64,000 nucleotides of DNA from Balneolaceae bacterium (GTDB taxonomy: Bacteria; Bacteroidota; Rhodothermia; Balneolales; Balneolaceae). This document shows positions 6,701-46,575 of this stretch, one piece after another. A model generated the notes under the pieces. That model ran no database searches and had not been told where the DNA came from. It saw only the letters and a program-made list of their open reading frames with translations. Both the position numbers and the translations under genes were made by a program. The first letter of the stretch is position 1. Each line of letters begins with the position of its first letter. The stretch lies in NCBI GenBank assembly GCA_034521495.1, contig JAXHMK010000022.1, forward strand, positions 124,001 through 188,000. The letters are read 5' to 3'.

Positions 6701-6967
6701 CGAGGTTGAATAGACATATTCAACGCCTGAGATGTTAGAAAGAATTTTTTCCAGCGGAATGGATATCCTGTTTTCTACTTCCTGAGGCGATGCACCCGGG
6801 TAGCCGACAAAGATATCAGCCATGGGAACATCGATTTGGGGTTCTTCTTCACTGGGCGTAAGCCAAACTGCATATAGTCCGATGGCCATAAAGGCGATCA
6901 TCAGGAGCAGGGTAAGCTTTGAATCGATAAACGCCTGAGCAATTTTTCCTGCGAATCCGGTTTTCAT
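3746..6967 (-). CDS. RND family efflux pump, inner-membrane subunit
   Basis: A 1073-residue proton-driven resistance-nodulation-division transporter. It has the expected plan: TM1 at about residues 15-35, a periplasmic porter domain with the GASPQEVENRI motif, TM2-6, a second periplasmic half and TM8-12. In TM4 the proton-relay position reads GIVVDNSIIVAEN with D419 followed by Asn, where AcrB has Asp-Asp; such D-N variants are common in HAE1-type pumps. Upstream genes encode its adaptor and outer-membrane channel. The substrate is unknown; the ArsR-rhodanese regulator of the same operon suggests a sulfur- or metal-related signal rather than a general drug. Confidence 0.93.
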   Translation of the reverse strand: MKTGFAGKIAQAFIDSKLTLLLMIAFMAIGLYAVWLTPSEEEPQIDVPMADIFVGYPGASPQEVENRISIPLEKILSNISGVEYVYSTSMPEMGMVSARFYVGQDVEESLVRLYNEIMKFMDTKPEPVTMPLIKTRSINDVPIVTLTLWSDMHDDYQIRRIAQELDNEIKSITDVAETKIHGGRSRTVQVVLDKNKMASLAIDPLRVAQTIKAANREFKSGKFSVNDEEYLVQTGSFLKNAEDVGSLVLDVRAGDSILLRDIAEVKDGPGEPANYVSYSPGPVSSEESGLHAGSSYPAVTISVAKRQGADAMEIATQIDRMVEKLNGSVITENIRVETTRNYGETATEKVNTLLIHLVVAVLSVSFVVFLAMGWRGALVVFISVPITFALTLFFYYMYDYTLNRITLFALVFVTGIVVDNSIIVAENMHRHFKMRKLPLKQAAIYAINEVGNPAILATFTVIAAVIPMAFVSGLMGPYMSPIAIGATVAMILSLIISLIATPWLGYRLLSAVRVHSGGSSGKRYKLEDTIIYKLYDKTMRPLMESSWKRWAFLLGTTVILFASLVLFYTRSVEVKMLPFDNKNEIQLIIDLPEGTTLERTDAVAREVGLALLDVPEVYDYQVYSGTNAPINFNGLVRSYDMRQMSNVADIQVNLVDKSLRSDQSHDIAKRMRPLVQKVGEKYGANVKVVEVPPGPPVLSTLVAEVYGPNLEMQRSIGNEIKQIFSETPGIVDTDWMVEDEQTEYHFDVQREKAAVTGVMPQQVTESLGMILGQHPVSSLYDENEASLVPIQMKLDESSRAGVQNLGGLHVQSQTGAMVPVTDLVQVEKRTLAKSIHRKNQRRVVYVTAEVAGEIESPVYAILDAQNQIDAIDLPTGYNLEQQYAGQPFTSEDVTVKWDGEWQITLEVFRDLGIAFAVVLLIIYILIVGWFQDFGVPFIMMIAIPLSLIGILIGHWVASAFFTATSMIGLIALAGIMVRNSVLLIDFIQISLKEGNSLQDAVIEAGAVRTMPILLTAGTVVIGAIVILFDPIFQGLAISLMGGAIASTALTLVTVPLIYFMAKKNLRADEIITK

Positions 6968-23436: not shown

Positions 23437-23575
23437 ATTAGGGGTGGTTTAATTGATGAATTCAGGACACTAAAGAGTCAAAATCCTAAGGCTACCTCTC
23501 CTAGCTCCGCCTTACATAGGAGGGGAACGCAATAATCAGCATTTTAAAATCGAACCCAGTTTAAAATGTACTTTT

Positions 23576-24211
23576 TTATGGCTCCTTTTTCATCACCATG
23601 CTTACCAGATAATCAGGTATAAATGCTTCCCGGGCGTCAATGAACTCTGAAAAGCCCTCTTCGTCCATATCCAATATAACCTGAATGACGGGACGGCCCA
23701 GGAAGGGAAAAACCAGCATGGCCATAATGTTCACAAAAATTTGCTCAGGCGGCAGATCTACGGTATTTCCTTTTTCCCTCTCTTCCTTGATCTGATTCAA
23801 AAAAGGCTGCACTCGTTTCCCGATTTCACCGACAACAAATTTCTTCAGCCGGCTTGGATTTTTGTTCATTTCGTGAATCACAAAGAGCGGGATATCGGGA
23901 TTGACTTTTAGAAGCTCAATATATTTTTTTGCAAATTTCCGAAGCTTTTCATCCAGCGGCAGATCTTCGTTGAGCAGCGAAGCCACCTGTGGCATCAGCT
24001 TGATGATGGAGAGCTCATACACTTTTTCGAATAGCTTCTCTTTTGATCGATAGTAGTAGTGCAGCATCGACTTGTTGATGTCGGCCTTATCCGCTATCTC
24101 CTGCATTCGCGCGCCTTCCAGCCCTTTACTCTGAAATACCTCACGGGCTGCATCAAAAATTTTCTGTTCCGTTGATGACGAGGACTGTTCTGTAGATTCT
24201 TCTTTTTTCAT
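23576..24211 (-). CDS. TetR family repressor of the duplicated efflux locus, intact copy
   Basis: A 211-residue TetR-type regulator. Residues 14-60 form the DNA-binding domain (QKIFDAAREVFQSKGLEGARMQEIADKADINKSMLHYYYRSKEKLFEKVY). The remainder is a helical ligand-binding domain. It is divergent from the MFP-RND-OMF genes that start at 24762, the usual arrangement for a repressor of an efflux operon, and a palindrome with AACCATATGGTT lies between them. This copy keeps its natural C-terminus; the second copy at 30358-30945 is truncated and frameshifted. Confidence 0.92.
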   Translation of the reverse strand: MKKEESTEQSSSSTEQKIFDAAREVFQSKGLEGARMQEIADKADINKSMLHYYYRSKEKLFEKVYELSIIKLMPQVASLLNEDLPLDEKLRKFAKKYIELLKVNPDIPLFVIHEMNKNPSRLKKFVVGEIGKRVQPFLNQIKEEREKGNTVDLPPEQIFVNIMAMLVFPFLGRPVIQVILDMDEEGFSEFIDAREAFIPDYLVSMVMKKEP

Positions 24212-24236
24212 GACAACATTTGTTTCAGATTATTCT

Positions 24237-24510
24237 AAAATAAAAACCTGAGTTCGATTTTTAATCTTTAATGAAATGCTCCATAAGTGAGACTGTCCAA
24301 AAGATGGTTTTGATTTATGGGCGCCTTAATAATTAAAGTTTACTTCGTGAACCTTTGAGTCTTTGTGTCTTCGTGGTAATAAATTCACGGTTTATGCCAC
24401 GAAGACTCGAGGACGCGAAGCAACACGAAGGATGTGTATAACAACTATTTGAAATTAGACTAAAATATTTAATTCAAGCTACGTCCAAATATATTTTTTT
24501 GGACAGCCTT
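24237..24510. repeat. Insertion-like segment with GTCCAAAA ends, in copy 1 only
   Basis: Within the 550-base TetR/MFP gap, GACTGTCCAAAAGA at 24291-24304 and TTTTTTGGACAGCC at 24495-24508 are imperfect inverted repeats around 218 bases. Inside is a hairpin with arms CTTCGTGG and CCACGAAG (near 24369 and 24395). In the second copy of the duplication the matching segment (30971-31187) is largely unrelated, although a GTCTTCGTGG..ATTCACGG..ATGCCA trace is shared. It may be a decayed MITE-like element. Confidence 0.45.
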
Positions 24511-24575
24511 AGCATCTTTTATCATAATTTTAAAGTGGTACTCAGGTTAAAATATAAAAGTTTAGAACAATATTT

Positions 24576-24711
24576 AACTATATGGTTGAAATATTTGGTT
24601 GAAGGGAGGTAAGGTTGATAGAAGATTCTACAGTTTATTATCTGTAATAGATTAATCATCAACTGTTTACAGAGTCGGAGCTGAACGAATTTGTAAATTA
24701 ACCATATGGTT
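24576..24711. promoter_or_regulatory. Candidate TetR operators upstream of efflux operon copy 1
   Basis: AACCATATGGTT at 24700-24711 is a perfect 12-base palindrome located 50 bases before the adaptor start. A near-copy, AACTATATGGTT, lies at 24576-24587. The same sites occur in the second copy of the locus exactly 6673 bases further on. TetR-type repressors bind such sites; the link to this TetR is inference. Confidence 0.6.
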
Positions 24712-24761
24712 GAACTATATGATTTATGTCCGTAAACTGTGGTTGAACACAAAAAAAGAGT

Positions 24762-25868
24762 ATGGACATGAATAAAGCCTATCTAAGTACTGCGGTACTT
24801 TTACTATTAATGATAACAGCCTCATGCAGCGGTGAATCAGCAGAGAAGCCTGCAGAAAATCAAATTGAGACTGCAGCAGCCGAACTCGATTCTCAGCAGG
24901 TTCGCTTTTTCAACGTGAAAACGGAATCTGTAGCAGATCGGGTAACTTTAAGCGGACGTCTTCGTGCGGATAACCGTGTTGAGCTTTTCCCGGAAGTGCA
25001 GGGCAGGGTGATGGAGGGAGGCAAGCCGTTTCAGGAAGGGATTTCCTATCAAAAAGGAGAAATTTTAATAAAGCTGGACGACAGCGAAGCCGGGCTGAAG
25101 CTTCAGTCATCAAGAAGCAAGTTCAAAACCGTTGTCTCCGGGCTAATGGCCGATATCAAGCTGGACTATCCGGAAACGCTGCCGCAGTATGAGGAGTGGT
25201 TTAATACGCTGAGCGCTGAGAAATCTGTTTCGCCCATTCCCGAGTTTGAAGAGAGTGTACGCCGTTTCCTGGAGTCGAAAGGCGTGTATGAACTCTACTA
25301 CGGCATCAAAAGTGCAGAGGAACAGCTGGAAAAATTTATAATTCGCGCACCGTTTTCAGGAGTTTTATCGGCCGCCAAAGCTGAGCCGGGTCAGGCAGTT
25401 GGGCCACAGTTTCATTTGGGTACGCTGGTAGATCCATCGCGGTTTATTTTAAACGCTTCGATTGAACCCGATGATGCAGAATGGATTCTGCCCGGACAAA
25501 CGCTGGAGGTAAGAAATCAGGATCAAAGCAGAGCGTATGCTGCAACCGTGACGAGAGTGAACCCGTCGGTGGATCCGGCCTCGCAACAGGTGTTTGTGTA
25601 CCTGGAGGTTTCGGGCAATAACTTACGGGAGGGAATGTACCTGGAGGGTGAGATCGAATCAGAGAGAACAAAGGAGCTGGCCAGAATTCCAAAAACAGCT
25701 TTGACGAGAACGCGGGACGTAATTGCCAATAGAGACGGACAGCTGCTTGAAGTGCCCGTTCAAATTGAGGAATTGGAGCGGAGCCACCTCTGGGTAAGCG
25801 GGTTGGAAAATGGGGAAGAGATCGTAGAAGATGTCACTGAACCGGTCAGCGGCCGAATCATCAAGTAG
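24762..25868 (+). CDS. RND efflux adaptor (membrane fusion protein), copy 1
   Basis: A 368-residue periplasmic adaptor. A lipoprotein-type signal ends TASCSGES (Cys about residue 22). The order is first lipoyl half (NRVELFPEVQGRVMEGGKPFQEG, ILIKLDDSEAG), a helical hairpin that is shorter than usual, second lipoyl half (IIRAPFSGVLSAAKAEPGQAVG) and a beta-barrel domain. The pump gene starts 8 bases downstream with a weak AGGA ribosome site. Compared with copy 2 at 31435, about ten residues differ over the protein, far more than in the adjacent pump. Confidence 0.93.
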   Translation: MDMNKAYLSTAVLLLLMITASCSGESAEKPAENQIETAAAELDSQQVRFFNVKTESVADRVTLSGRLRADNRVELFPEVQGRVMEGGKPFQEGISYQKGEILIKLDDSEAGLKLQSSRSKFKTVVSGLMADIKLDYPETLPQYEEWFNTLSAEKSVSPIPEFEESVRRFLESKGVYELYYGIKSAEEQLEKFIIRAPFSGVLSAAKAEPGQAVGPQFHLGTLVDPSRFILNASIEPDDAEWILPGQTLEVRNQDQSRAYAATVTRVNPSVDPASQQVFVYLEVSGNNLREGMYLEGEIESERTKELARIPKTALTRTRDVIANRDGQLLEVPVQIEELERSHLWVSGLENGEEIVEDVTEPVSGRIIK

Positions 25869-25876
25869 GAAATTCC

Positions 25877-28800
25877 ATGAAGAGATTAATTAACTTTTTT
25901 GTCCGTAACCCCGTCATGGTTACCCTGGGGCTGATGATCATCGTTCTGATGGGCATCCTCAGCTTTAGCCAGACGCGCTACACGCTGAATCCGCCGGAAG
26001 ATCCGACTGAAATTTATGTGAATATCACGTATCGCGGCGCATCACCGCTTGAAATTGAAGAGCGGGCGATATCCAGAATTGAAGAGAACCTGAACGGTAT
26101 AAACGGGATGGACCGTCATACCTCCGTGGCCCGGGAAAACAGCGGCCGCATTACCGTGGAGATTTTTGAGTGGGCCGATATTAATGAAGTGTTGGTTGAC
26201 GTGGAGAACGCGGTGAACAGGGTAACAGACCTGCCCGAAGAGATGGATCGCCCGATTGTTTATAAGCAGGAGATGCTCAATCCCACGATTTCGCTTGCGC
26301 TGACCGGCGACATCTCGCTTCAGCAGAAAAGAGATTATGCCGATCAAATCAGGGATGAATTTCTTGTTGAGAAGGGAATCTCAAACGTAATCCTGCACGG
26401 CTTTCCTCCTGAAGAGATCTCCATTGAACTCAACGACGAGCAGATGGACCGGTTTGGAATTTCCGCGCAGGAAGTAGCGGAAGCCGTTAGGAAAAATAAT
26501 ATTGACATCACCGGTGGCGAATTGAAGATGGAGGATGCCAACTGGCAGATCAGGGCTGAAAACAAAGAGGTGACAGCGCTCGAAATTGCTCAGATTCCTG
26601 TGCGTTCGGGACTGAACGGTGAACGCGTTCTTCTGAAAGAGATCGCCTCTGTAACAGATCAATTCGACGACCGGCCCATTGAACGCTATCTCGATGGCGA
26701 AGAGTCGGTGGTGATTCAGGTCGTGACCACCAACGAAGAGAATCTTGTGGCCATTGCCGAAGAGGTGAAAGAGTACGCCGGACATTTTAATACGCTGCAC
26801 AGCGGCGTTGAGCTGACTGTAGTGGAAGATTTTTCCGAATTCGTGTATGAGCGTGTTGATTCCCTCAGGAGTAACGCCATTTTCGGTTTAATCCTGGTGT
26901 TGCTCATCCTCACGCTATTCCTTGATAAACGGATTGCGATGTGGGTCTCTCTTACGATTCCGCTGGCAATTTTGGGTACCTTTGCTACTGCACTGCTGGG
27001 GTATGATTTCACAATCAACGTGGTATCGATATTTGGCATTATCCTGGTTTTGGGGATGCTGGTGGATACCGGTGTGGTGGTTGCTGAAAACATTTACCGC
27101 CATTACGATGAATTTGGAGAATCACCTGTTGAGGCTGCCCGTAATGGCGCCGCTGAAGTTGCCTCACCTATGATCATCTCGCTTATGACCACAGCTACGG
27201 CGTTCAGCCTCTTCTTTTTTCTTCCCGGAAAACCCGGTGCCTTTTTTACGGAAGTCTCCTTTGTGGTGGTGAGTGCGCTGCTGGCCGCGCTCATTGTAAC
27301 ATTTCTTTTTCTGCCTCAGAAACTCACTGTTTCAAAAGTATTGTCCGATCAGAATAAGCAAACCCGTTTTGAGAAAGCGATGGCGAGCGGGCTTACATCA
27401 TTCAGGGACAACTATTTTATGCCATTTACTGATTTCATTTCTCACAAATGGCGATGGCTCAATGTTTTCGCCTTTATTCTTCTGCTGTTAGGTTCGGTTG
27501 CCCTGATCAGAACCGGCGTTTTACCGGTTACCTTTTTCCCCTATCTGGATGATGACGTTCAGCTGGTGCGGATAGAGATGGAGCCGGGAGTTCCGGTGGA
27601 TACTACCCGGGCGAAGCTGATGAAAATTGAAGAAGCCGTATACAGAGTCGGGGATCGGCTCACGGAAGACAGAACAGATAATGAGAACGTAATACAGAAT
27701 GTGGAGAGAATCCTGGGTCCTGAAAGCCACCAGGGAGAACTGCGAATTGTTATGATGGGCGGCGATGAGCGGGGAATTCCGGCCTACGAAATCAACAATA
27801 TGTTCAGGGATGAAGTGGGAGATGTACCCGGCACAAATTACATCCGGTTTATTTCTGCACTTGCCGAGCACCGGTTTGGCGGACTCCCGGTGGATATTTC
27901 GGTTTCGGGAAAGAGTATAGAGAATATTCAGGAAGCTGCCGAAAAACTGAAGAGATCACTTGAAAAACGAGACGATTTGGTGGATGTGGCGGATACCGAT
28001 CAGCGCGGCAACCCCGAACTGCATATTGAACTGTCAAAAGCAGGTGAACAGCTTGGGCTTACGCTTCAGGATATCATGATGCAGGTCCGAACGGCTTTCT
28101 TCGGGATGGAGCTTCAAACGCTTCAGCGCACAGGAAATGATGTGAGGGTGTGGCTGAGATTTCCTGAGGAGAACCGGGAGAGTTATCGTGATCTGATGGA
28201 TGTTAAAATCAGAACGCCGAAGGGTGCTTATCCATTGTCGCAGGTGGCGCATATTTCGCCGACGGATGCATCTCTCAACGTCAATCATATTAACGGCCGG
28301 CGAACCATTCGGGTAGATGCCGACCTGGCTGATCCATCCCTTTCCGCTCCTGCAATCCTGGCCGATATCAGGGAAAGCACGCTGTCGCCCCTGGAGAAGG
28401 AGTTTCCCGGCGTGCAGTTTGTGATTGAGGGGCAGAACCGTGAATCGGCAAAAGTGACCGAGGCAATGCAGGCGGTAGCCCCGGTTATACTGCTCGTCAT
28501 CCTGGCGCTGATGGTCGTTAACTTTCAATCATTCAGCCAGACGTTCCTGGTTCTTCTTACGCTGCCGTTTGCCTTTACGGGCGTGGTGATCGGCCACTGG
28601 GTGCACGGTGCAACCATGAACATATTTTCCCTGATCGGGATGATTGCACTCATCGGTATCCTGATCAATAACCTGCTGGTTCTTATCACGGCTTTTAATG
28701 ATAATCTGAAGGCTGAAATGACGTTCGAAGAGGCGCTGAGAGATGCCGTACGGTCACGTTTTCGGCCCATTTTACTCACAACGCTCAGTACGGTGGCCGG

Positions 28801-29044
28801 ATTGATTCCCATGATTTTTGTTGGCGGACTGGCGTCTGCATTTTTAAAACCGCCGGCCATTGCCATCGCTTACGGGCTCACGTTTGGGCTGCTGATCTCC
28901 CTTACGCTTGCACCGGCTTTTCTGGTCATTTTCAACAACGCGAAATTCACAATTCTGAAGATACTGGGCAAAGAACCGGAGACACAGGAGAGTATTGAAC
29001 CGGCAGTCATTCTTCATGAACATCATAAAAAGAACACACTATGA
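25877..29044 (+). CDS. RND family efflux pump, copy 1
   Basis: A 1055-residue HAE1/hydrophobe-type RND permease. TM1 spans about residues 9-29, followed by the porter domain (YRGASPLEIEERAI), TM2-6 (about 335-480), a second porter half and TM8-12 (about 865-1035). In TM4 the proton-relay segment reads GMLVDTGVVVAEN with D397. It differs from copy 2 at only two residues that I could find (Arg/Ser in AEKLK(R/S)SLEK and Val/Ile in AVAP(V/I)ILL). The OMF gene overlaps its stop by 4 bases (ATGA). The substrate is unknown. Confidence 0.95.
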   Translation: MKRLINFFVRNPVMVTLGLMIIVLMGILSFSQTRYTLNPPEDPTEIYVNITYRGASPLEIEERAISRIEENLNGINGMDRHTSVARENSGRITVEIFEWADINEVLVDVENAVNRVTDLPEEMDRPIVYKQEMLNPTISLALTGDISLQQKRDYADQIRDEFLVEKGISNVILHGFPPEEISIELNDEQMDRFGISAQEVAEAVRKNNIDITGGELKMEDANWQIRAENKEVTALEIAQIPVRSGLNGERVLLKEIASVTDQFDDRPIERYLDGEESVVIQVVTTNEENLVAIAEEVKEYAGHFNTLHSGVELTVVEDFSEFVYERVDSLRSNAIFGLILVLLILTLFLDKRIAMWVSLTIPLAILGTFATALLGYDFTINVVSIFGIILVLGMLVDTGVVVAENIYRHYDEFGESPVEAARNGAAEVASPMIISLMTTATAFSLFFFLPGKPGAFFTEVSFVVVSALLAALIVTFLFLPQKLTVSKVLSDQNKQTRFEKAMASGLTSFRDNYFMPFTDFISHKWRWLNVFAFILLLLGSVALIRTGVLPVTFFPYLDDDVQLVRIEMEPGVPVDTTRAKLMKIEEAVYRVGDRLTEDRTDNENVIQNVERILGPESHQGELRIVMMGGDERGIPAYEINNMFRDEVGDVPGTNYIRFISALAEHRFGGLPVDISVSGKSIENIQEAAEKLKRSLEKRDDLVDVADTDQRGNPELHIELSKAGEQLGLTLQDIMMQVRTAFFGMELQTLQRTGNDVRVWLRFPEENRESYRDLMDVKIRTPKGAYPLSQVAHISPTDASLNVNHINGRRTIRVDADLADPSLSAPAILADIRESTLSPLEKEFPGVQFVIEGQNRESAKVTEAMQAVAPVILLVILALMVVNFQSFSQTFLVLLTLPFAFTGVVIGHWVHGATMNIFSLIGMIALIGILINNLLVLITAFNDNLKAEMTFEEALRDAVRSRFRPILLTTLSTVAGLIPMIFVGGLASAFLKPPAIAIAYGLTFGLLISLTLAPAFLVIFNNAKFTILKILGKEPETQESIEPAVILHEHHKKNTL

Positions 29045-30417
29045 GATTGGTAATTTTATCTTTTATACTGGCGATTTTGGCTGGCAGCGTTTCTGCTCAG
29101 GAAAAGTTCACCCTTGATGAAGCGATCAAAGCAGCGCTGGAGCACAACCACAGCGTGCAGATCAGCGATATTAGTGCGGATATTGCAGAGAACAGCGTAT
29201 CGCGCGGAAACGCCGGTCAGCTGCCAAACCTTGCGATAACCGGAGGAGCAAGTGCTGCCTATAGCGATCTTGATGTCACACCGGGATCATTTTTCCAGAA
29301 TCTGCTCAATCCACAGGGATCGAATCAGCAAGGGTCACCGCCAACTATCTCGTATGATGGAGTTACCACCACGCAGTTCAATTCACAGATCGGGACACAA
29401 ATGGTGATTTACGACGGAATGAAGGGACGATTGCGTTACAAATTGCTGGAAACGGGAAGCGATCTGGCCGATTTGCAGTACCGTACTGAATTGGAAAACA
29501 CCATTTTAAATATCACCCAAAAGTTTATAAATGTAGCTTCGCTGCAGAAAGCGATAGAGGTCAAGGAAGTTTCGCTTGAGCAAAGCAACGACCGCTATCG
29601 CACCATTGAAACGAGGCGGGAATACGGCCAGGTAAATGAACAGCAGCTCTTGCAGGCCCTGGCAGATTTAAAGAGCGACAGTACGGCCTTTAGAAATCTG
29701 AAGCTTCAGTATGAAAATGCGTACCGCGATCTTCATACCGATATCGGGTGGGATCAGCGCGAGATGGATCCCGTGGCTGATGAATTTGCTGGGGCAGAAC
29801 TGCCGGGTTACGAGGATTTTTTATCGATGATGATGGAGAACAACTCTCTGCTGAACATCAGGGAAAAACGGCTGGAGCAGGCTGAGCTGAATGAACGGAT
29901 GACAAAAGCCGGATTTTTGCCCTCACTAACCGCATCGGCCGGGTATGGCTACAGCTACATGAACGCAACCGAAGGTCAATTTGAGACGCAGGAGCAGCTC
30001 GGTTTTACCGGCGGATTATCACTGAAGATCCCGATTTTCAGCGGCGGCAGAAATCGTATCGAGTCTCAAAATGCAAAAGAGAGGAGTCGCCAGGAAGAGC
30101 TTCGAAAAGAGGAGTCGGCAATGCAGCTTCAAACCCGTTTTGAAAACAGCTGGCAGCAGTATCTGCACCTGGAAGATCAGCTTGAAACAGAACGTTCAAA
30201 CCGAGCGGTTTACGAGCGAAATTACGAACGTGCGGAAGAGATGTTCAGCCGTGGTGAGATTACCGGAGTGGAACTGCGTGCAGCTCAGCTATCGCTGGAA
30301 AATGCGCGGCTAAGAGTGTCGGAAACCGGTTTTCAGCTGAAACAAACCGAGACGCTCGCTTCCCGGGCGTCAATGAACTCTGAAAAGCCCTCTTCGTCCA
30401 TATCCAATATAACCTGA
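29041..30417 (+). CDS. TolC-family outer membrane factor, copy 1, C-terminus replaced by antisense TetR sequence
   Basis: A 458-residue outer-membrane factor with signal peptide (ends VSAQE) and two TolC-type repeats. It matches copy 2 (35714-37075) up to KQTETL and then diverges at base 30356-30358, where the duplication junction falls. The last 19 residues (ASRASMNSEKPSSSISNIT) are read from the reverse of a TetR gene's 3' end, in place of the natural LLYLSGVLVADYPY. The protein should still form the channel if the lost end is dispensable. ATGA overlap with the pump gene. Confidence 0.9.
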   Translation: MRLVILSFILAILAGSVSAQEKFTLDEAIKAALEHNHSVQISDISADIAENSVSRGNAGQLPNLAITGGASAAYSDLDVTPGSFFQNLLNPQGSNQQGSPPTISYDGVTTTQFNSQIGTQMVIYDGMKGRLRYKLLETGSDLADLQYRTELENTILNITQKFINVASLQKAIEVKEVSLEQSNDRYRTIETRREYGQVNEQQLLQALADLKSDSTAFRNLKLQYENAYRDLHTDIGWDQREMDPVADEFAGAELPGYEDFLSMMMENNSLLNIREKRLEQAELNERMTKAGFLPSLTASAGYGYSYMNATEGQFETQEQLGFTGGLSLKIPIFSGGRNRIESQNAKERSRQEELRKEESAMQLQTRFENSWQQYLHLEDQLETERSNRAVYERNYERAEEMFSRGEITGVELRAAQLSLENARLRVSETGFQLKQTETLASRASMNSEKPSSSISNIT

Positions 30418-30945
30418 ATGACGGGACGGCCCAGGAAGGGAAAAACCAGCATGGCCATTATGTTCACAAAAATTTGTTCAGGCGGCAGATCTACGGTATT
30501 TCCTTTTTCCCTCTCTTCCTTGATCTGCTTCAGAAACGGCTGCACTCGTTTCCCGATTTCACCGACAACAAATTTCTTCAGCCGGCTTGGGTTTTTGTTC
30601 ATCTCGTGAATCACAAAGAGCGGGATATCGGGATTGACTTTTAGAAGCTCAATATATTTTTTTGCAAATTTCCGAAGCTTTTCATCCAGCGGCAGATCCT
30701 CATTGAGCAGCGAGGCCACCTGCGGCATCAGCTTGATGATGGAGAGCTCATACACTTTTTCGAATAGCTTCTCTTTTGATCGATAGTAGTAGTGCAGCAT
30801 CGACTTGTTGATGTCCGCCTTATCCGCTATCTCCTGCATTCGCGCGCCTTCCAGCCCTTTACTTTGAAATACCTCACGGGCGGCTTCAAAGATTTTCTGT
30901 TCCGTGGATGACGAGGACTGTTCTGCTAGATTCTTCTTTTTTCAT
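30358..30945 (-). pseudogene. TetR repressor copy 2, frameshifted and truncated
   Basis: Sequence aligns with the intact TetR gene at 23625-24211. Two lesions are visible. A one-base insertion (CTGCTAGATTC where copy 1 has CTGTAGATTC, near 30925) shifts the frame five codons after the ATG at 30945 and leads to a stop about 14 codons later. At the other end the last 14 residues (IPDYLVSMVMKKEP) are lost at the duplication junction. A frame from an internal ATG (MQEIADKAD) remains open but lacks the first helix of the DNA-binding domain, so the product should not be a functional repressor. Confidence 0.88.
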
Positions 30946-31248
30946 GACAACATTTGTTTCAGATTATTCTAAATACGTTTACAAGTTTAATCTAAAAATG
31001 TTCGATAATAGCTTCCAATCTTTTGAATGGGGAAATAGCTTCCTGAACCCTGAGCTTGTCTTCGTGGAGGAGATTCACGGGTGATGCCAGATGAGTATGT
31101 GATTCACACTAAGATTTTTCAGCTGTTTGACATCAAACAAGTACTTATCAAGCTACCTCCAATACCTCCTTTGGAAGGGGGAGCATCTTTTATCATAATT
31201 GTTAAACGTGGTACTCAGATTAAAATATAAAAGTTTAGAACAATATTT

Positions 31249-31384
31249 AACTATATGGTTGAAATATTTGGTTGAAGGGAGGTAAGGTTGCTAGAAGATT
31301 CTACAGTTTATTATCTGTAATAGATTAAGCATCAACTGTTTACAGAGTCAAAGCTAACCGAATTTGTAAATTAACCATATGGTT
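31249..31384. promoter_or_regulatory. Candidate TetR operators upstream of efflux operon copy 2, and intergenic region 30946-31434
   Basis: AACTATATGGTT at 31249-31260 and the perfect palindrome AACCATATGGTT at 31373-31384 repeat the sites of copy 1 with an offset of 6673. The rest of the gap from 30946 holds no gene; bases 30971-31187 are unlike copy 1. Since the local TetR is broken, the intact TetR at 23576 would have to act on both operator sets. Confidence 0.6.
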
Positions 31385-31434
31385 GAACTATATGATTTAT
31401 GTCCGTAAACTGTGGTCGAACACAAAAAAAGAGT

Positions 31435-32541
31435 ATGGACATGAATAAAGCCTATCTAAGTACTGCGGTACTTTTACTATTAATGATAACAGCCTCATGC
31501 AGCGATGAATCAGCAGAGAAACCGCCCGAAAGCCAAATTGAGACTGCAGCAGCCGAACTCGATTCTCAGCAGGTTCGCTTTTTCAACGTGAAAACGGAAT
31601 CTGTAGCAGATCGGGTAACTTTAAGCGGACGTCTTCGTGCGGATAACCGTGTTGAGCTTTTCCCGGAAGTGCAAGGCAGGGTGATGGAGGGAGGCAAGCC
31701 GTTTCAGGAGGGGATTTCCTATCAAAAAGGAGAAATTTTAATAAAGCTGGACGACAGCGAAGCCGGGCTGAAGCTTCAGTCATCAAGAAGCAAGTTCAAA
31801 ACCGTTGTCTCCGGGCTAATGGCCGATATCAAGCTGGACTATCCGGAAACACTGCCGCAGTATGAGGAGTGGTTTAATACGCTGAGCGCTGAGAAGTCTG
31901 TTTCACCCATTCCCGAGTTTGAAGAGGGTGTACGCCGTTTCCTGGAGTCGAAAGGAGTGTATGAACTCTACTACGGCATCAAAAGTGCAGAGGAACAGCT
32001 GGAAAAATTTACGATTCGCGCCCCGTTTTCAGGAGTTTTATCGGCCGCCAAAGCTGAGCCGGGTCAGGCAGTTGGGCCACAGTTTCATTTGGGTACGCTG
32101 GTAGATCCATCGCGGTTTATTTTAAACGCTTCGATTGAACCCGATGATGCAGAATGGATTCTGCCCGGACAAACGCTGGAGGTAAGAAATCAGGATCAAA
32201 GCAGAGCGTATGCTGCAACCATTACGAGAGTGAACCCGTCGGTGGATCCGGCCTCGCAACAGGTGTTTGTGTACCTGGAGGTTTCGGGCAATAACTTACG
32301 GGAGGGAATGTACCTGGAGGGTGAGATAAAATCAGAGAGAACAAAGAAACTGGCCAGGATTCCAAAAACGGCTTTGACGAGAACGGGGGATGTAATTGCC
32401 AATAGAGTCGGTCAGCTGCTTGAAGTGCCCGTTCAAATTGAGGAATTGGAGCGGAGCCACCTCTGGGTAAGCGGGTTGGAAAATGGGGAAGAGATCGTAG
32501 AAGATGTCACTGAACCGGTCAGCGGACGAATCATCAAGTAG
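31435..32541 (+). CDS. RND efflux adaptor (membrane fusion protein), copy 2
   Basis: A 368-residue paralogue of the gene at 24762, offset 6673 bases. The ATG at 31435 matches the start of copy 1; an upstream GTG-type frame adding 12 residues is not conserved in copy 1 and is rejected. Differences from copy 1 include Gly/Asp after the lipobox Cys, KPPESQ for KPAENQ, Gly/Ser in FEE(S/G)VRR, Thr for Ile in KF(I/T)IRA, Ile for Val in AAT(V/I)TRV, and a cluster near the C-terminus (GEI(E/K)SERTK(E/K)L, RT(R/G)DV, NR(D/V)GQ). Architecture is as in copy 1. Confidence 0.92.
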   Translation: MDMNKAYLSTAVLLLLMITASCSDESAEKPPESQIETAAAELDSQQVRFFNVKTESVADRVTLSGRLRADNRVELFPEVQGRVMEGGKPFQEGISYQKGEILIKLDDSEAGLKLQSSRSKFKTVVSGLMADIKLDYPETLPQYEEWFNTLSAEKSVSPIPEFEEGVRRFLESKGVYELYYGIKSAEEQLEKFTIRAPFSGVLSAAKAEPGQAVGPQFHLGTLVDPSRFILNASIEPDDAEWILPGQTLEVRNQDQSRAYAATITRVNPSVDPASQQVFVYLEVSGNNLREGMYLEGEIKSERTKKLARIPKTALTRTGDVIANRVGQLLEVPVQIEELERSHLWVSGLENGEEIVEDVTEPVSGRIIK

Positions 32542-32549
32542 GAAATTCC

Positions 32550-35500
32550 ATGAAGAGATTAATTAACTTTTTTGTCCGTAACCCCGTCATGGTAACCCTG
32601 GGGCTGATGATCATCGTTCTGATGGGCATCCTCAGCTTTAGCCAGACACGCTACACGCTGAATCCGCCCGAAGACCCGACTGAAATTTATGTGAATATCA
32701 CGTATCGCGGCGCATCACCGCTTGAAATTGAAGAGCGGGCGATATCCAGAATTGAAGAGAACCTGAACGGTATAAACGGGATGGACCGTCATACCTCCGT
32801 GGCCCGGGAAAACAGCGGCCGCATCACCGTGGAGATTTTTGAGTGGGCCGATATTAATGAAGTGTTGGTTGACGTGGAGAACGCGGTGAACAGGGTAACA
32901 GACCTGCCCGAAGAGATGGATCGCCCGATTGTTTATAAGCAGGAGATGCTCAATCCCACGATTTCGCTTGCGCTGACCGGCGACATCTCGCTTCAGCAGA
33001 AAAGAGATTATGCCGATCAAATCAGGGATGAATTTCTTGTTGAGAAGGGAATCTCAAACGTAATCCTGCACGGCTTTCCTCCTGAAGAGATCTCCATTGA
33101 ACTGAACGACGAGCAGATGGACCGGTTTGGAATTTCCGCGCAGGAAGTAGCGGAAGCCGTTAGAAAAAATAATATTGACATCACCGGTGGCGAATTGAAG
33201 ATGGAGGATGCCAACTGGCAGATCAGGGCTGAAAACAAAGAGGTGACAGCGCTCGAAATTGCTCAGATTCCTGTGCGTTCGGGACTGAACGGTGAACGCG
33301 TACTGCTGAAAGAGATCGCCTCTGTAACAGATCAATTCGACGACCGGCCCATTGAACGCTATCTCGATGGCGAAGAGTCGGTGGTGATTCAGGTCGTGAC
33401 CACCAACGAAGAGAATCTTGTGGCCATTGCCGAAGAGGTGAAAGAGTACGCCGGACATTTTAATACGCTGCACAGTGGCGTTGAGCTGACTGTAGTGGAA
33501 GATTTTTCCGAATTCGTGTATGAGCGTGTTGATTCCCTCAGGAGTAACGCTATTTTCGGTTTAATCCTGGTGCTGCTCATCCTCACGCTATTCCTTGATA
33601 AACGGATTGCGATGTGGGTCTCTCTTACGATTCCGCTGGCAATTTTGGGTACCTTTGCTACTGCACTGCTGGGGTATGATTTCACAATCAACGTGGTATC
33701 GATATTTGGCATTATCCTGGTTTTGGGGATGCTGGTGGATACCGGTGTGGTGGTTGCTGAAAACATTTACCGCCATTACGATGAATTTGGAGAATCACCT
33801 GTTGAGGCTGCCCGAAATGGCGCTGCGGAAGTTGCCTCACCTATGATCATCTCGCTTATGACCACAGCTACGGCGTTCAGCCTCTTCTTTTTTCTTCCCG
33901 GAAAACCCGGTGCCTTTTTTACGGAAGTCTCGTTTGTGGTGGTGAGTGCGCTGCTGGCCGCGCTCATTGTAACATTTCTTTTTCTGCCTCAGAAACTCAC
34001 CGTTTCAAAAGTATTGTCCGATCAGAATAAGCAAACCCGTTTTGAGAAAGCGATGGCGAGCGGGCTTACATCATTCAGGGACAACTATTTTATGCCATTT
34101 ACTGATTTCATTTCTCACAAATGGCGATGGCTCAATGTTTTCGCCTTTATTCTTCTGCTGTTAGGTTCGGTTGCCCTGATCAGAACCGGCGTTTTACCGG
34201 TTACCTTTTTCCCCTATCTGGATGATGACGTTCAGCTGGTGCGGATAGAGATGGAGCCGGGAGTTCCGGTGGATACTACCCGGGCTAAGCTGATGAAAAT
34301 TGAAGAAGCCGTATACAGAGTCGGGGATCGGCTCACGGAAGACAGAACCGATAACGAGAACGTAATACAGAATGTGGAGAGAATCCTGGGTCCTGAAAGC
34401 CACCAGGGAGAACTGCGAATTGTTATGATGGGCGGCGATGAGCGGGGAATTCCGGCCTACGAAATCAACAATATGTTCAGGGATGAAGTGGGAGATGTAC
34501 CCGGCACAAATTACATCCGGTTTATTTCTGCACTTGCCGAGCACCGGTTTGGCGGACTCCCGGTGGATATTTCGGTTTCGGGAAAGAGTATAGAGAATAT
34601 TCAGGAAGCTGCCGAAAAACTGAAGAGTTCACTTGAAAAACGAGACGACCTGGTGGATGTGGCGGATACCGATCAGCGCGGCAACCCCGAGCTGCATATT
34701 GAACTGTCAAAAGCAGGTGAACAGCTTGGGCTTACGCTTCAGGATATCATGATGCAGGTCCGAACGGCTTTCTTCGGGATGGAGCTTCAAACGCTTCAGC
34801 GCACAGGAAATGATGTGAGGGTGTGGCTGAGATTTCCTGAGGAGAACCGGGAGAGTTATCGTGATCTGATGGATGTTAAAATCAGAACGCCGAAGGGTGC
34901 TTATCCATTGTCGCAGGTGGCGCATATTTCGCCGACGGATGCATCTCTCAACGTCAATCATATCAACGGCCGGCGAACCATTCGGGTAGATGCCGACCTG
35001 GCTGATCCGTCCCTTTCCGCTCCTGCAATCCTGGCCGATATCAGGGAAAGCACGCTGTCGCCCCTGGAGAAGGAGTTTCCCGGCGTGCAGTTTGTGATTG
35101 AGGGGCAGAACCGTGAATCGGCAAAAGTAACCGAGGCAATGCAGGCGGTAGCCCCGATTATACTGCTCGTCATCCTGGCGCTGATGGTCGTTAACTTTCA
35201 ATCATTCAGCCAGACGTTCCTGGTTCTTCTTACGCTGCCGTTTGCCTTTACGGGCGTGGTGATCGGCCACTGGGTGCACGGTGCAACCATGAACATATTT
35301 TCCCTGATCGGGATGATTGCACTCATCGGTATCCTGATCAATAACCTGCTGGTTCTTATCACGGCTTTTAATGATAATCTGAAGGCTGAAATGACGTTCG
35401 AAGAGGCGCTGAGAGATGCCGTACGGTCACGTTTTCGGCCCATTTTACTCACAACGCTCAGTACGGTGGCCGGATTGATTCCCATGATTTTTGTTGGCGG

Positions 35501-35717
35501 ACTGGCGTCTGCATTTTTAAAACCGCCGGCCATTGCCATCGCTTACGGGCTCACGTTTGGGCTGCTGATCTCCCTTACGCTTGCACCGGCTTTTCTGGTC
35601 ATTTTCAACAACGCCAAATTCACAATTCTGAAGATACTGGGCAAAGAACCGGAGACACAGGAGAGTATTGAACCGGCAGTCATTCTTCATGAACATCATA
35701 AAAAGAACACACTATGA
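32550..35717 (+). CDS. RND family efflux pump, copy 2
   Basis: A 1055-residue RND permease, almost identical to copy 1 at 25877 (offset 6673). By eye about 28 nucleotide differences occur over 3168 bases, of which only two change an amino acid. Architecture, TM4 aspartate D397 and the 4-base overlap with the next gene are all kept. The low rate of amino-acid change shows purifying selection or gene conversion between the copies. Confidence 0.95.
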   Translation: MKRLINFFVRNPVMVTLGLMIIVLMGILSFSQTRYTLNPPEDPTEIYVNITYRGASPLEIEERAISRIEENLNGINGMDRHTSVARENSGRITVEIFEWADINEVLVDVENAVNRVTDLPEEMDRPIVYKQEMLNPTISLALTGDISLQQKRDYADQIRDEFLVEKGISNVILHGFPPEEISIELNDEQMDRFGISAQEVAEAVRKNNIDITGGELKMEDANWQIRAENKEVTALEIAQIPVRSGLNGERVLLKEIASVTDQFDDRPIERYLDGEESVVIQVVTTNEENLVAIAEEVKEYAGHFNTLHSGVELTVVEDFSEFVYERVDSLRSNAIFGLILVLLILTLFLDKRIAMWVSLTIPLAILGTFATALLGYDFTINVVSIFGIILVLGMLVDTGVVVAENIYRHYDEFGESPVEAARNGAAEVASPMIISLMTTATAFSLFFFLPGKPGAFFTEVSFVVVSALLAALIVTFLFLPQKLTVSKVLSDQNKQTRFEKAMASGLTSFRDNYFMPFTDFISHKWRWLNVFAFILLLLGSVALIRTGVLPVTFFPYLDDDVQLVRIEMEPGVPVDTTRAKLMKIEEAVYRVGDRLTEDRTDNENVIQNVERILGPESHQGELRIVMMGGDERGIPAYEINNMFRDEVGDVPGTNYIRFISALAEHRFGGLPVDISVSGKSIENIQEAAEKLKSSLEKRDDLVDVADTDQRGNPELHIELSKAGEQLGLTLQDIMMQVRTAFFGMELQTLQRTGNDVRVWLRFPEENRESYRDLMDVKIRTPKGAYPLSQVAHISPTDASLNVNHINGRRTIRVDADLADPSLSAPAILADIRESTLSPLEKEFPGVQFVIEGQNRESAKVTEAMQAVAPIILLVILALMVVNFQSFSQTFLVLLTLPFAFTGVVIGHWVHGATMNIFSLIGMIALIGILINNLLVLITAFNDNLKAEMTFEEALRDAVRSRFRPILLTTLSTVAGLIPMIFVGGLASAFLKPPAIAIAYGLTFGLLISLTLAPAFLVIFNNAKFTILKILGKEPETQESIEPAVILHEHHKKNTL

Positions 35718-37075
35718 GATTGGTAATTTTATCTTTTATACTGGCGATTTTGGCTGGCAGCGTTTCTGCTCAGGAAAAGTTCACCCTTGATGAAGCGATC
35801 AAAGCAGCGCTGGAGCACAACCACAGCGTGCAGATCAGCGATATTAGTGCGGATATTGCAGAGAACAGCGTATCGCGCGGAAACGCCGGTCAGCTGCCAA
35901 ACCTGGCGATAACCGGAGGAGCGAGTGCTGCCTATAGCGATCTTGATGTCACACCGGGATCATTTTTCCAGAATCTGCTCAATCCACAGGGATCGAATCA
36001 GCAAGGGTCACCGCCAACTATCTCGTATGATGGAGTTACCACCACGCAGTTCAATTCACAGATCGGGACACAAATGGTGATTTACGACGGAATGAAGGGA
36101 CGATTGCGTTACAAATTGCTGGAAACGGGAAGCGATCTGGCCGATTTGCAGTACCGTACTGAATTGGAAAACACCATTTTAAATATAACTCAAAAGTTCA
36201 TAAATGTAGCTTCGCTGCAGAAAGCGATAGAGGTCAAGGAAGTTTCGCTTGAGCAAAGCAACGACCGCTATCGCACCATTGAAACGAGGCGGGAATACGG
36301 TCAGGTAAATGAGCAGCAGCTCTTGCAGGCCCTGGCAGATTTAAAGAGCGACAGTACGGCCTTTAGAAATCTGAAGCTTCAGTATGAAAATGCGTACCGC
36401 GATCTGCATACCGATATCGGGTGGGATCAGCGCGAGATGGATCCTGTGGCTGATGAATTTGCTGCGGCAGAACTGCCGGGTTACGAGGATTTTTTATCGA
36501 TGATGATGGAGAACAACTCTCTGCTGAACATCAGGGAAAAACGGCTGGAGCAGGCTGAGCTGAATGAACGGATGACAAAAGCCGGATTTTTGCCCTCACT
36601 AACCGCATCGGCCGGGTATGGCTACAGCTACATGAACGCAACCGAAGGTCAGTTTGAGACGCAGGAGCAGCTCGGCTTTACCGGCGGGCTATCGCTGAAG
36701 ATCCCGATTTTCAGCGGCGGCAGAAATCGTATCGAGTCTCAAAATGCAAAAGAGAGGAGTCGCCAGGAAGAGCTTCGAAAAGAGGAGTCGGCAATGCAGC
36801 TTCAAACCCGTTTTGAAAACAGCTGGCAGCAGTATCTGCACCTGGAAGATCAGCTTGAAACAGAACGTTCAAACCGCGCAGTTTACGAGCGAAATTACGA
36901 ACGTGCGGAAGAGATGTTCAGCCGTGGTGAGATTACCGGAGTGGAACTGCGTGCAGCTCAGCTATCGCTGGAAAATGCGCGGCTAAGAGTGTCGGAAACC
37001 GGTTTTCAGCTGAAACAAACCGAGACACTGCTTCTGTATCTGAGTGGTGTTTTAGTAGCAGATTATCCATATTGA
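35714..37075 (+). CDS. TolC-family outer membrane factor, copy 2, natural C-terminus
   Basis: A 453-residue outer-membrane factor identical to copy 1 except for Ala/Gly in EFA(A/G)AEL and the C-terminus, which here is LLYLSGVLVADYPY. This copy represents the original end of the locus, downstream of the duplication. It has the signal peptide (ending VSAQE), FTLDEAIKAALEHNHSVQI at the start of the first repeat and FLPSLTASAGYGYSYM in the second. Confidence 0.93.
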   Translation: MRLVILSFILAILAGSVSAQEKFTLDEAIKAALEHNHSVQISDISADIAENSVSRGNAGQLPNLAITGGASAAYSDLDVTPGSFFQNLLNPQGSNQQGSPPTISYDGVTTTQFNSQIGTQMVIYDGMKGRLRYKLLETGSDLADLQYRTELENTILNITQKFINVASLQKAIEVKEVSLEQSNDRYRTIETRREYGQVNEQQLLQALADLKSDSTAFRNLKLQYENAYRDLHTDIGWDQREMDPVADEFAAAELPGYEDFLSMMMENNSLLNIREKRLEQAELNERMTKAGFLPSLTASAGYGYSYMNATEGQFETQEQLGFTGGLSLKIPIFSGGRNRIESQNAKERSRQEELRKEESAMQLQTRFENSWQQYLHLEDQLETERSNRAVYERNYERAEEMFSRGEITGVELRAAQLSLENARLRVSETGFQLKQTETLLLYLSGVLVADYPY

Positions 37076-42041: not shown

Positions 42042-42161
42042 AATGATGAATCTTAATAATTGATTAATGCTACTTCATTAAAATATGTAATTCGGTTAAA
42101 TAACTGAAAATCAGAGCATCAAAAAGCAAGCAAATTATAATCTTTGGTTTTTACATATTTA

Positions 42162-42290
42162 GAAGGCTTTGCAAAACTATGACCGTCATCCTGAACTTGA
42201 TTCAGGATCTCCTGATACTGGCTATAAAGACGAATGGAGAATCTGAATCGAGTTCAGATTGACGCATACCCACGGTTTTGCAAAGCCTTC
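42162..42290. mobile_element. 129-bp MITE, copy A
   Basis: The element is bounded by perfect 16-base terminal inverted repeats, GAAGGCTTTGCAAAAC at 42162-42177 and GTTTTGCAAAGCCTTC at 42275-42290. Direct repeats ATTTA at 42157-42161 and 42291-42295 fit a 5-base target duplication. The interior holds two hairpins (ATCCTGAACTTGATTCAGGAT and TCTGAATCGAGTTCAGA). Copy B at 46398-46526 has the same length and different flanks. It encodes nothing and needs a transposase in trans. Confidence 0.85.
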
Positions 42291-42322
42291 ATTTAATGTA
42301 CAGTCAAAAAATTGGTTTTCTT

Positions 42323-46164: not shown

Positions 46165-46397
46165 AGGTGAGAATGTAGTCTTGAGTCTTGAGATTTGAAA
46201 AAACTGAAAATGGCGCACGCGTCTCGCTTGTGCCATTTTTTTGATCAATTTCTATAATTTCCCGTCTCCCGTCTCCCGTCTCACTTTTTCACCAAAACGG
46301 TATTCACTTTAATCAAAGATATTAGGTAACGGGTAAGCTGTGGCTGTATGGTGTAATTCGTAAATCTGCGAATGGGTTGATTCTGAATTGGTTTAAG

Positions 46398-46526
46398 GAA
46401 GGCTTTGCAAAACTCTGCCCGTCATCCTGAACTCGATTCAGGATCTCCAGATACTGGCTATAAAGGCGAATGGAGAATCTGAATCGAGTTCAGATTGACC
46501 AATAACCACGGTTTTGCAAAGCCCTC
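46398..46526. mobile_element. 129-bp MITE, copy B
   Basis: Second copy of the element at 42162-42290: left terminal repeat GAAGGCTTTGCAAAAC at 46398-46413, right repeat GTTTTGCAAAGCCCTC at 46511-46526 (one mismatch), same 129-base length and nearly the same interior. It is flanked by TTAAG at 46393-46397 and 46527-46531, a 5-base target duplication. It sits in the 500-base gene-free gap between ppc and the sugar porter. Confidence 0.85.
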
Positions 46527-46575
46527 TTAAGATTCCAATCGAAACTATTCGTTCTGTGTCGTTTATAATAATTTT

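Follow-up and report, generated by a model that had tools for sequence, protein, structure and literature searches.

Head-to-tail duplication of a TetR/MFP-RND-OMF efflux locus in a Balneolaceae bacterium, with one of the two repressor genes broken

Results

The window, by which we mean the entire stretch of 64,000 nucleotides analyzed (positions 124,001 to 188,000 of contig JAXHMK010000022.1, Balneolaceae assembly GCA_034521495.1), contained two direct copies, head to tail, of a multidrug-type efflux locus made up of TetR, MFP, RND, and OMF genes, as recognized by sequence alignment. The duplicated unit was 6,733 bp, with copy 1 at 23625-30357 and copy 2 at 30358-37030, and the local alignment between them started at 23625/30358 and ended at 30362/37034. 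Exact 20-mers of the window recurred at two spacings: 4,616 pairs at an offset of 6673, that of MFP, RND, and OMF, and 324 pairs at 6733, that of TetR. The two offsets differ because the TetR-MFP control regions of the copies are unequal in length. These values bore out the exact 6673-base repetition of three consecutive genes noted in a preliminary description of this DNA. A whole-genome search for a third copy of the locus found none, leaving two copies only.

All three pump components were encoded on the plus strand in each copy. The MFP periplasmic adaptor gene of copy 1 (24762-25868) was an open reading frame (ORF) whose product scored above the RND_mfp cutoff; that of copy 2 was placed at 31435-32541, its frame being open from 31399 and its start set by comparison with copy 1. 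The copy 1 RND permease (25877-29044; 1055 aa), likewise an ORF, matched ACR_tran over residues 5-1019 (E = 5.4e-168), a size and domain content expected of an RND system, and its counterpart in copy 2 occupied 32550-35717. The OMF outer-membrane channel gene of copy 2 (35714-37075) had its natural C-terminus and a complete OEP match (187 of 187 positions). In copy 1 (29041-30417) the natural C-terminus was replaced by about 20 codons of antisense TetR, with a stop at 30417, and the OEP match reached position 177 of 187, lacking the last ten. MFP also matched HlyD_3, such that adaptor and channel were both encoded alongside the permease.

In its divergent TetR gene and MFP-RND-OMF order, the locus resembled TetR-regulated tripartite RND loci of the AcrR-AcrAB-TolC and MdtABC/MexAB types. 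Among solved chains the permease was closest to MdtB and AcrB. It fell below all named-family cutoffs. Near residue 397, in helix 4, it had D-T against D-D in MdtB, and near residue 932, in helix 10, N against K, so that the proton-relay set usual for such pumps (a pair of Asp in helix 4 and a Lys in helix 10) was not retained. The helix 4 D-T was found in every readable orthologue, and the changes at the relay positions are a trait common to the orthologues and no part of the duplication. Judging from these residues, the energy coupling of this RND subfamily may differ from that of AcrB, and we place the locus in the broad RND superfamily, not with AcrB itself.

The two permeases differed at 2 of 1055 residues. 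The preliminary description had suggested either a dosage benefit or a difference in substrate between the pumps; the latter is unlikely because the permeases are near-identical, and we rejected it, an effect on dosage or regulation being more plausible. Synonymous changes accounted for 27 of 29 differences in RND, 17 of 18 in OMF, 19 of 30 in MFP, and 15 of 17 in TetR, and the six pump genes have remained open under purifying selection.

The two repressor genes, both on the minus strand, were in different states. The ORF of TetR copy 1 (23576-24211; 211 aa) was intact, had an orthologue of equal length in G001, the nearest relative carrying the locus, and had the N-terminal DNA-binding domain (TetR_N at residues 18-63, matching positions 1-46 of 47). 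In TetR copy 2 (30358-30945), a single base inserted at 30926, near codon 7, broke the frame, and OMF sequence read in antisense took the place of the C-terminus. The longest ORF of this copy with a normal start, 30333-30839, began inside the DNA-binding domain, and from the first usable start only positions 19-46 of 47 of TetR_N were matched. We considered an internal restart of this gene and rejected it, since the first ATG (M37) falls within the DNA-binding domain. Only one of the two loci, that of copy 1, thus retains an intact repressor gene. The claim that a complete locus had been duplicated accordingly fails for copy 2, with its repressor gene frameshifted and deprived of its C-terminus, and the copy 1 OMF is also altered in carrying a foreign C-terminal tail.

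Breakpoints were located in the two outermost genes. The left breakpoint (23625-23629), at the alignment start, consisted of GCTTC within the TetR 3' end, and the right breakpoint (37030-37034) of GCTTC within the OMF 3' end. Between them, the duplication junction (30354-30362; GCTCGCTTC) could be read directly as an OMF 3' end fused to a TetR 3' end, with GACGCTC on one side of the joint and GCTTCCCGGG on the other. Copy 2 retained the natural end of OMF, GACACTGCTTCTGTAT, and copy 1 that of TetR, AAATGCTTCCCGGG. As had been described, GCTTC was common to both parents; the homology was nevertheless imperfect, with one more C before GCTTC at the joint (position 30357) than in the copy 2 OMF parent. 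Either the joining process introduced this base or OMF was then present as a different allele. At a random pair of points in the region, at least five shared bases would be expected with a probability of 0.6% (0.006). A direct repeat with an inner joint that fuses both outer ends with little homology is the pattern of tandem duplication by illegitimate recombination. We rejected duplication mediated by an insertion sequence or repeat, there being neither a long repeat nor a transposase at the breakpoints.

Other repeats were seen in the window. A dispersed intergenic repeat at 23440-23566, with many copies in two related genomes (G018 and G024), lay just outside the left breakpoint and was absent from the junction. 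Farther along, two copies of a repeat of ~135 bp with inverted ends GAAGGCTTTGCAAAAC, about 90% alike (42157-42296 and 46391-46530), flanked a stretch holding a gene resembling phosphoenolpyruvate carboxylase.

The nearest relative, G001, had a single copy of the locus, with an RND protein 87% identical to those described here. Its TetR ended in AFMPDYLVSMVMKNPS, matching TetR copy 1, and its OMF in LLLYLSGGLLGSY, matching OMF copy 2. Comparison with this sequence confirms that the natural gene ends are those on the outside and that the new joint is the inner fusion. Because the single copy of G001 has both natural ends, the tandem duplication and the order of events that had been read from the breakpoints hold. 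In ten further genomes of the family, one orthologue per genome was listed, with identities of 55-71%. A contig search for relatives found one, a Balneolaceae MAG at 71%. In another genome (G002), Dps and DUF488 genes neighbored the single copy, and in the window both sit to the right of copy 2.

The related loci also varied in other respects. Three of them (L045, L046, and L049) had two tandem TetR genes beside one orthologous pump, about 65-70% and 35-40% identical to TetR copy 1, and regulator number therefore varies at this locus. In G051, another genome of the family, two RND genes on separate contigs (C6:19654-22659 and C13:153785-156790) had the same match score and may represent an independent duplication of a pump.

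A variable, repeat-rich tract of 210-270 bp formed part of each TetR-MFP control region. In copy 1 (24245-24512) it consisted of a palindromic repeat interrupted by an element of ~220 bp with inverted ends AGACTGTCCAAAA/TTTTGGACAGCCT; the copy 2 tract (30975-31183) was about 83% identical to it in aligned columns with about 30 gaps, a rough figure given the gap-rich alignment. The ~1% divergence stated in the preliminary description thus does not extend to these regions. The copy 2 tract was nearer to the copy 1 tract (z about 14) than to other members of the dispersed family (z 1.4-5.2). It was considered as a captured gene fragment and rejected as such, its best outside match being an intergenic stretch at C18, and a search for a phage match to this tract found none.

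The ~220-bp element (24285-24512) was MITE-like, its ends being inverted (AGRCTGTCCAAAA) and its core, CTTCGTG, palindromic, and was dispersed through the genus. Further copies were present at C21 of the same genome (G000:C21:177191-177410), adjoining a transposase gene, and at many sites in G018, G004, G009, and G016. An outer repeat occurred without the element at C4; this match, tried as a third pump, was rejected, being no more than a shared repeat in the intergenic space between an ATPase-like and a universal-stress-like gene.

The 250 bp adjoining MFP were 97% identical between copies. Here, candidate operators with a core motif conserved in relatives were located on the plus strand of copy 1 at 24574-24590 (TTAACTATATGGTTGAA) and 24698-24714 (TTAACCATATGGTTGAA), and on the same strand of copy 2 at 31247-31263 and 31371-31387. 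The palindrome TTAACYATATGGTTGAA was exact at four sites in the genome, two per copy and upstream of each pump, and a search of the whole genome for exact occurrences outside the duplicated locus found none. Its core was present in 8 of 11 orthologous loci, always in the TetR-MFP gap or just upstream of MFP (at one of the eight the TetR side runs off the contig), and the exact core was absent from the other three. These palindromes are the best operator candidates. With TetR copy 1 intact and identical candidates at both pumps, a single repressor would most likely govern both.

Divergence was uneven along the unit. At the nucleotide level it was 0.9% in RND, 1.4% in OMF, 2.7% in MFP, and 2.5-3% in TetR, and at synonymous sites 3.6%, 5.5%, 7.4%, and 12%, respectively (between-gene chi-square P = 4e-4), and all four genes were similarly distant from G001. 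Synonymous differences were more frequent towards the edges of homologous blocks (P = 8.5e-4 over all edges), although only weakly so when the right block was taken by itself (P = 0.03), and distance to the breakpoint, considered singly, had no significant relation to synonymous divergence (P = 0.42). Gene conversion between tandem copies would be expected to leave such edge enrichment, which nevertheless does not prove it, and the unevenness suggests either gene conversion or a mosaic of alleles. The earlier argument from roughly 1% divergence, that the duplication is no recent culture artefact, is not valid: at synonymous sites the divergence changes more than threefold from one part of the unit to another, and the overall 1% therefore does not date the event. 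Polarized with one distant outgroup, the TetR copy 2 branch had 4 synonymous changes and 1 nonsynonymous change, a constrained pattern pointing to a loss of frame that was probably later than most of the divergence.

Discussion

The duplication is genuine and of an ordinary kind, with no new system involved, and the locus falls within kinds already known. Pump genes amplified in tandem through microhomology joints have been well documented (PMC11721125, PMC10256781). In Staphylococcus aureus, sdrM amplifications have pump-bearing units of 7-13 kb and joints with microhomology or none (PMC10256781, PMC11721125); the present locus is similar in its pump-carrying unit, here 6.7 kb, and its GCTTC joint. 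Unlike those amplifications, which are unstable and recent, it consists of two fixed, diverged copies with the second repressor broken. Concerted evolution of prokaryotic paralogues is also known (PMC6053082), and our pair resembles it in the unevenness of divergence and in having paralogues far closer to each other than to the orthologue of the nearest relative. The present pair, however, occurs in one genome only, so that conversion is inseparable here from a recent origin or a mixing of alleles. In the literature searched we found no duplicated RND locus with a frameshifted TetR.

We propose that an illegitimate, short-homology join between the 3' ends of the outermost genes duplicated the whole TetR/MFP-RND-OMF locus head to tail, each copy thereby losing one gene end, that of OMF in copy 1 and that of TetR in copy 2. 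A later one-base insertion would have put the copy 2 repressor out of frame, with the TetR-MFP control regions drifting apart in their repeat-rich tract and purifying selection keeping the six pump genes open. Partial homogenization by gene conversion after the event would best account for the uneven divergence. The intact TetR copy 1 would repress both pumps in trans via the candidate operators, and induction would then give roughly a double dose of one pump. Taken whole, from short-homology duplication and loss of the second repressor to repression of both pumps by TetR copy 1 and partial gene conversion, we consider this account reasonably probable.

The divergence may also reflect differences that predate the duplication, as would be the case if illegitimate recombination with incoming DNA had joined in tandem the alleles of two strains that had diverged within a single species, in a duplication that could be very recent. 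This we judge somewhat unlikely. The 4:1 ratio on the broken TetR branch, where 72% nonsynonymous changes would be expected without selection (binomial estimate, P about 0.02), is in its favor, although the polarization relies on one distant outgroup with synonymous sites near saturation; the 2-3% divergence of the broken TetR, mostly synonymous, fits a recent join equally well, the control regions are far more different than the genes, and tandem repeats that are not under selection do not usually persist (PMC11721125). Yet a join of alleles requires a rarer event than simple tandem duplication and offers no reason for divergence to rise towards the block edges. Two histories remain: an older duplication, partly homogenized, in which the second repressor was lost recently, or strain alleles that were joined recently.

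It is quite unlikely that copy 2 escapes TetR control and acts as a constitutive pump. Its repressor is broken and its upstream tract is different, and terminator-like and promoter-like matches differ between the two tracts, but the promoter matches are at chance level, and with the 250 bp by MFP 97% identical and the operator candidates unchanged, TetR copy 1 should still act there. An assembly artefact, with strain variants of a single-copy locus placed in tandem, is very improbable: the copies do differ by 1-3%, as strain variants might, but the joint of OMF and antisense TetR shares GCTTC only, too short for an assembler overlap, and both copies lie well inside a long contig (C22; 263,522 bases) of an assembly with a low estimated contamination of 1.15%.

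A further reading would have the two copies form a stable, selected pair, with one repressor, a double pump dose, and gene conversion homogenizing the structural genes while only the control regions diverge. We hold this to be unlikely; if true, it would be an example, found naturally in a bacterium, of regulation duplicated while structural genes are homogenized. The locus also cautions against taking the percent identity of tandem copies as necessarily dating the event that produced them. More broadly, a tandem pump duplication may outlast the usual unstable stage, here with structural genes and operators kept and one repressor lost, and the locus illustrates legibly a way in which an environmental bacterium could come to have its pump dosage fixed.
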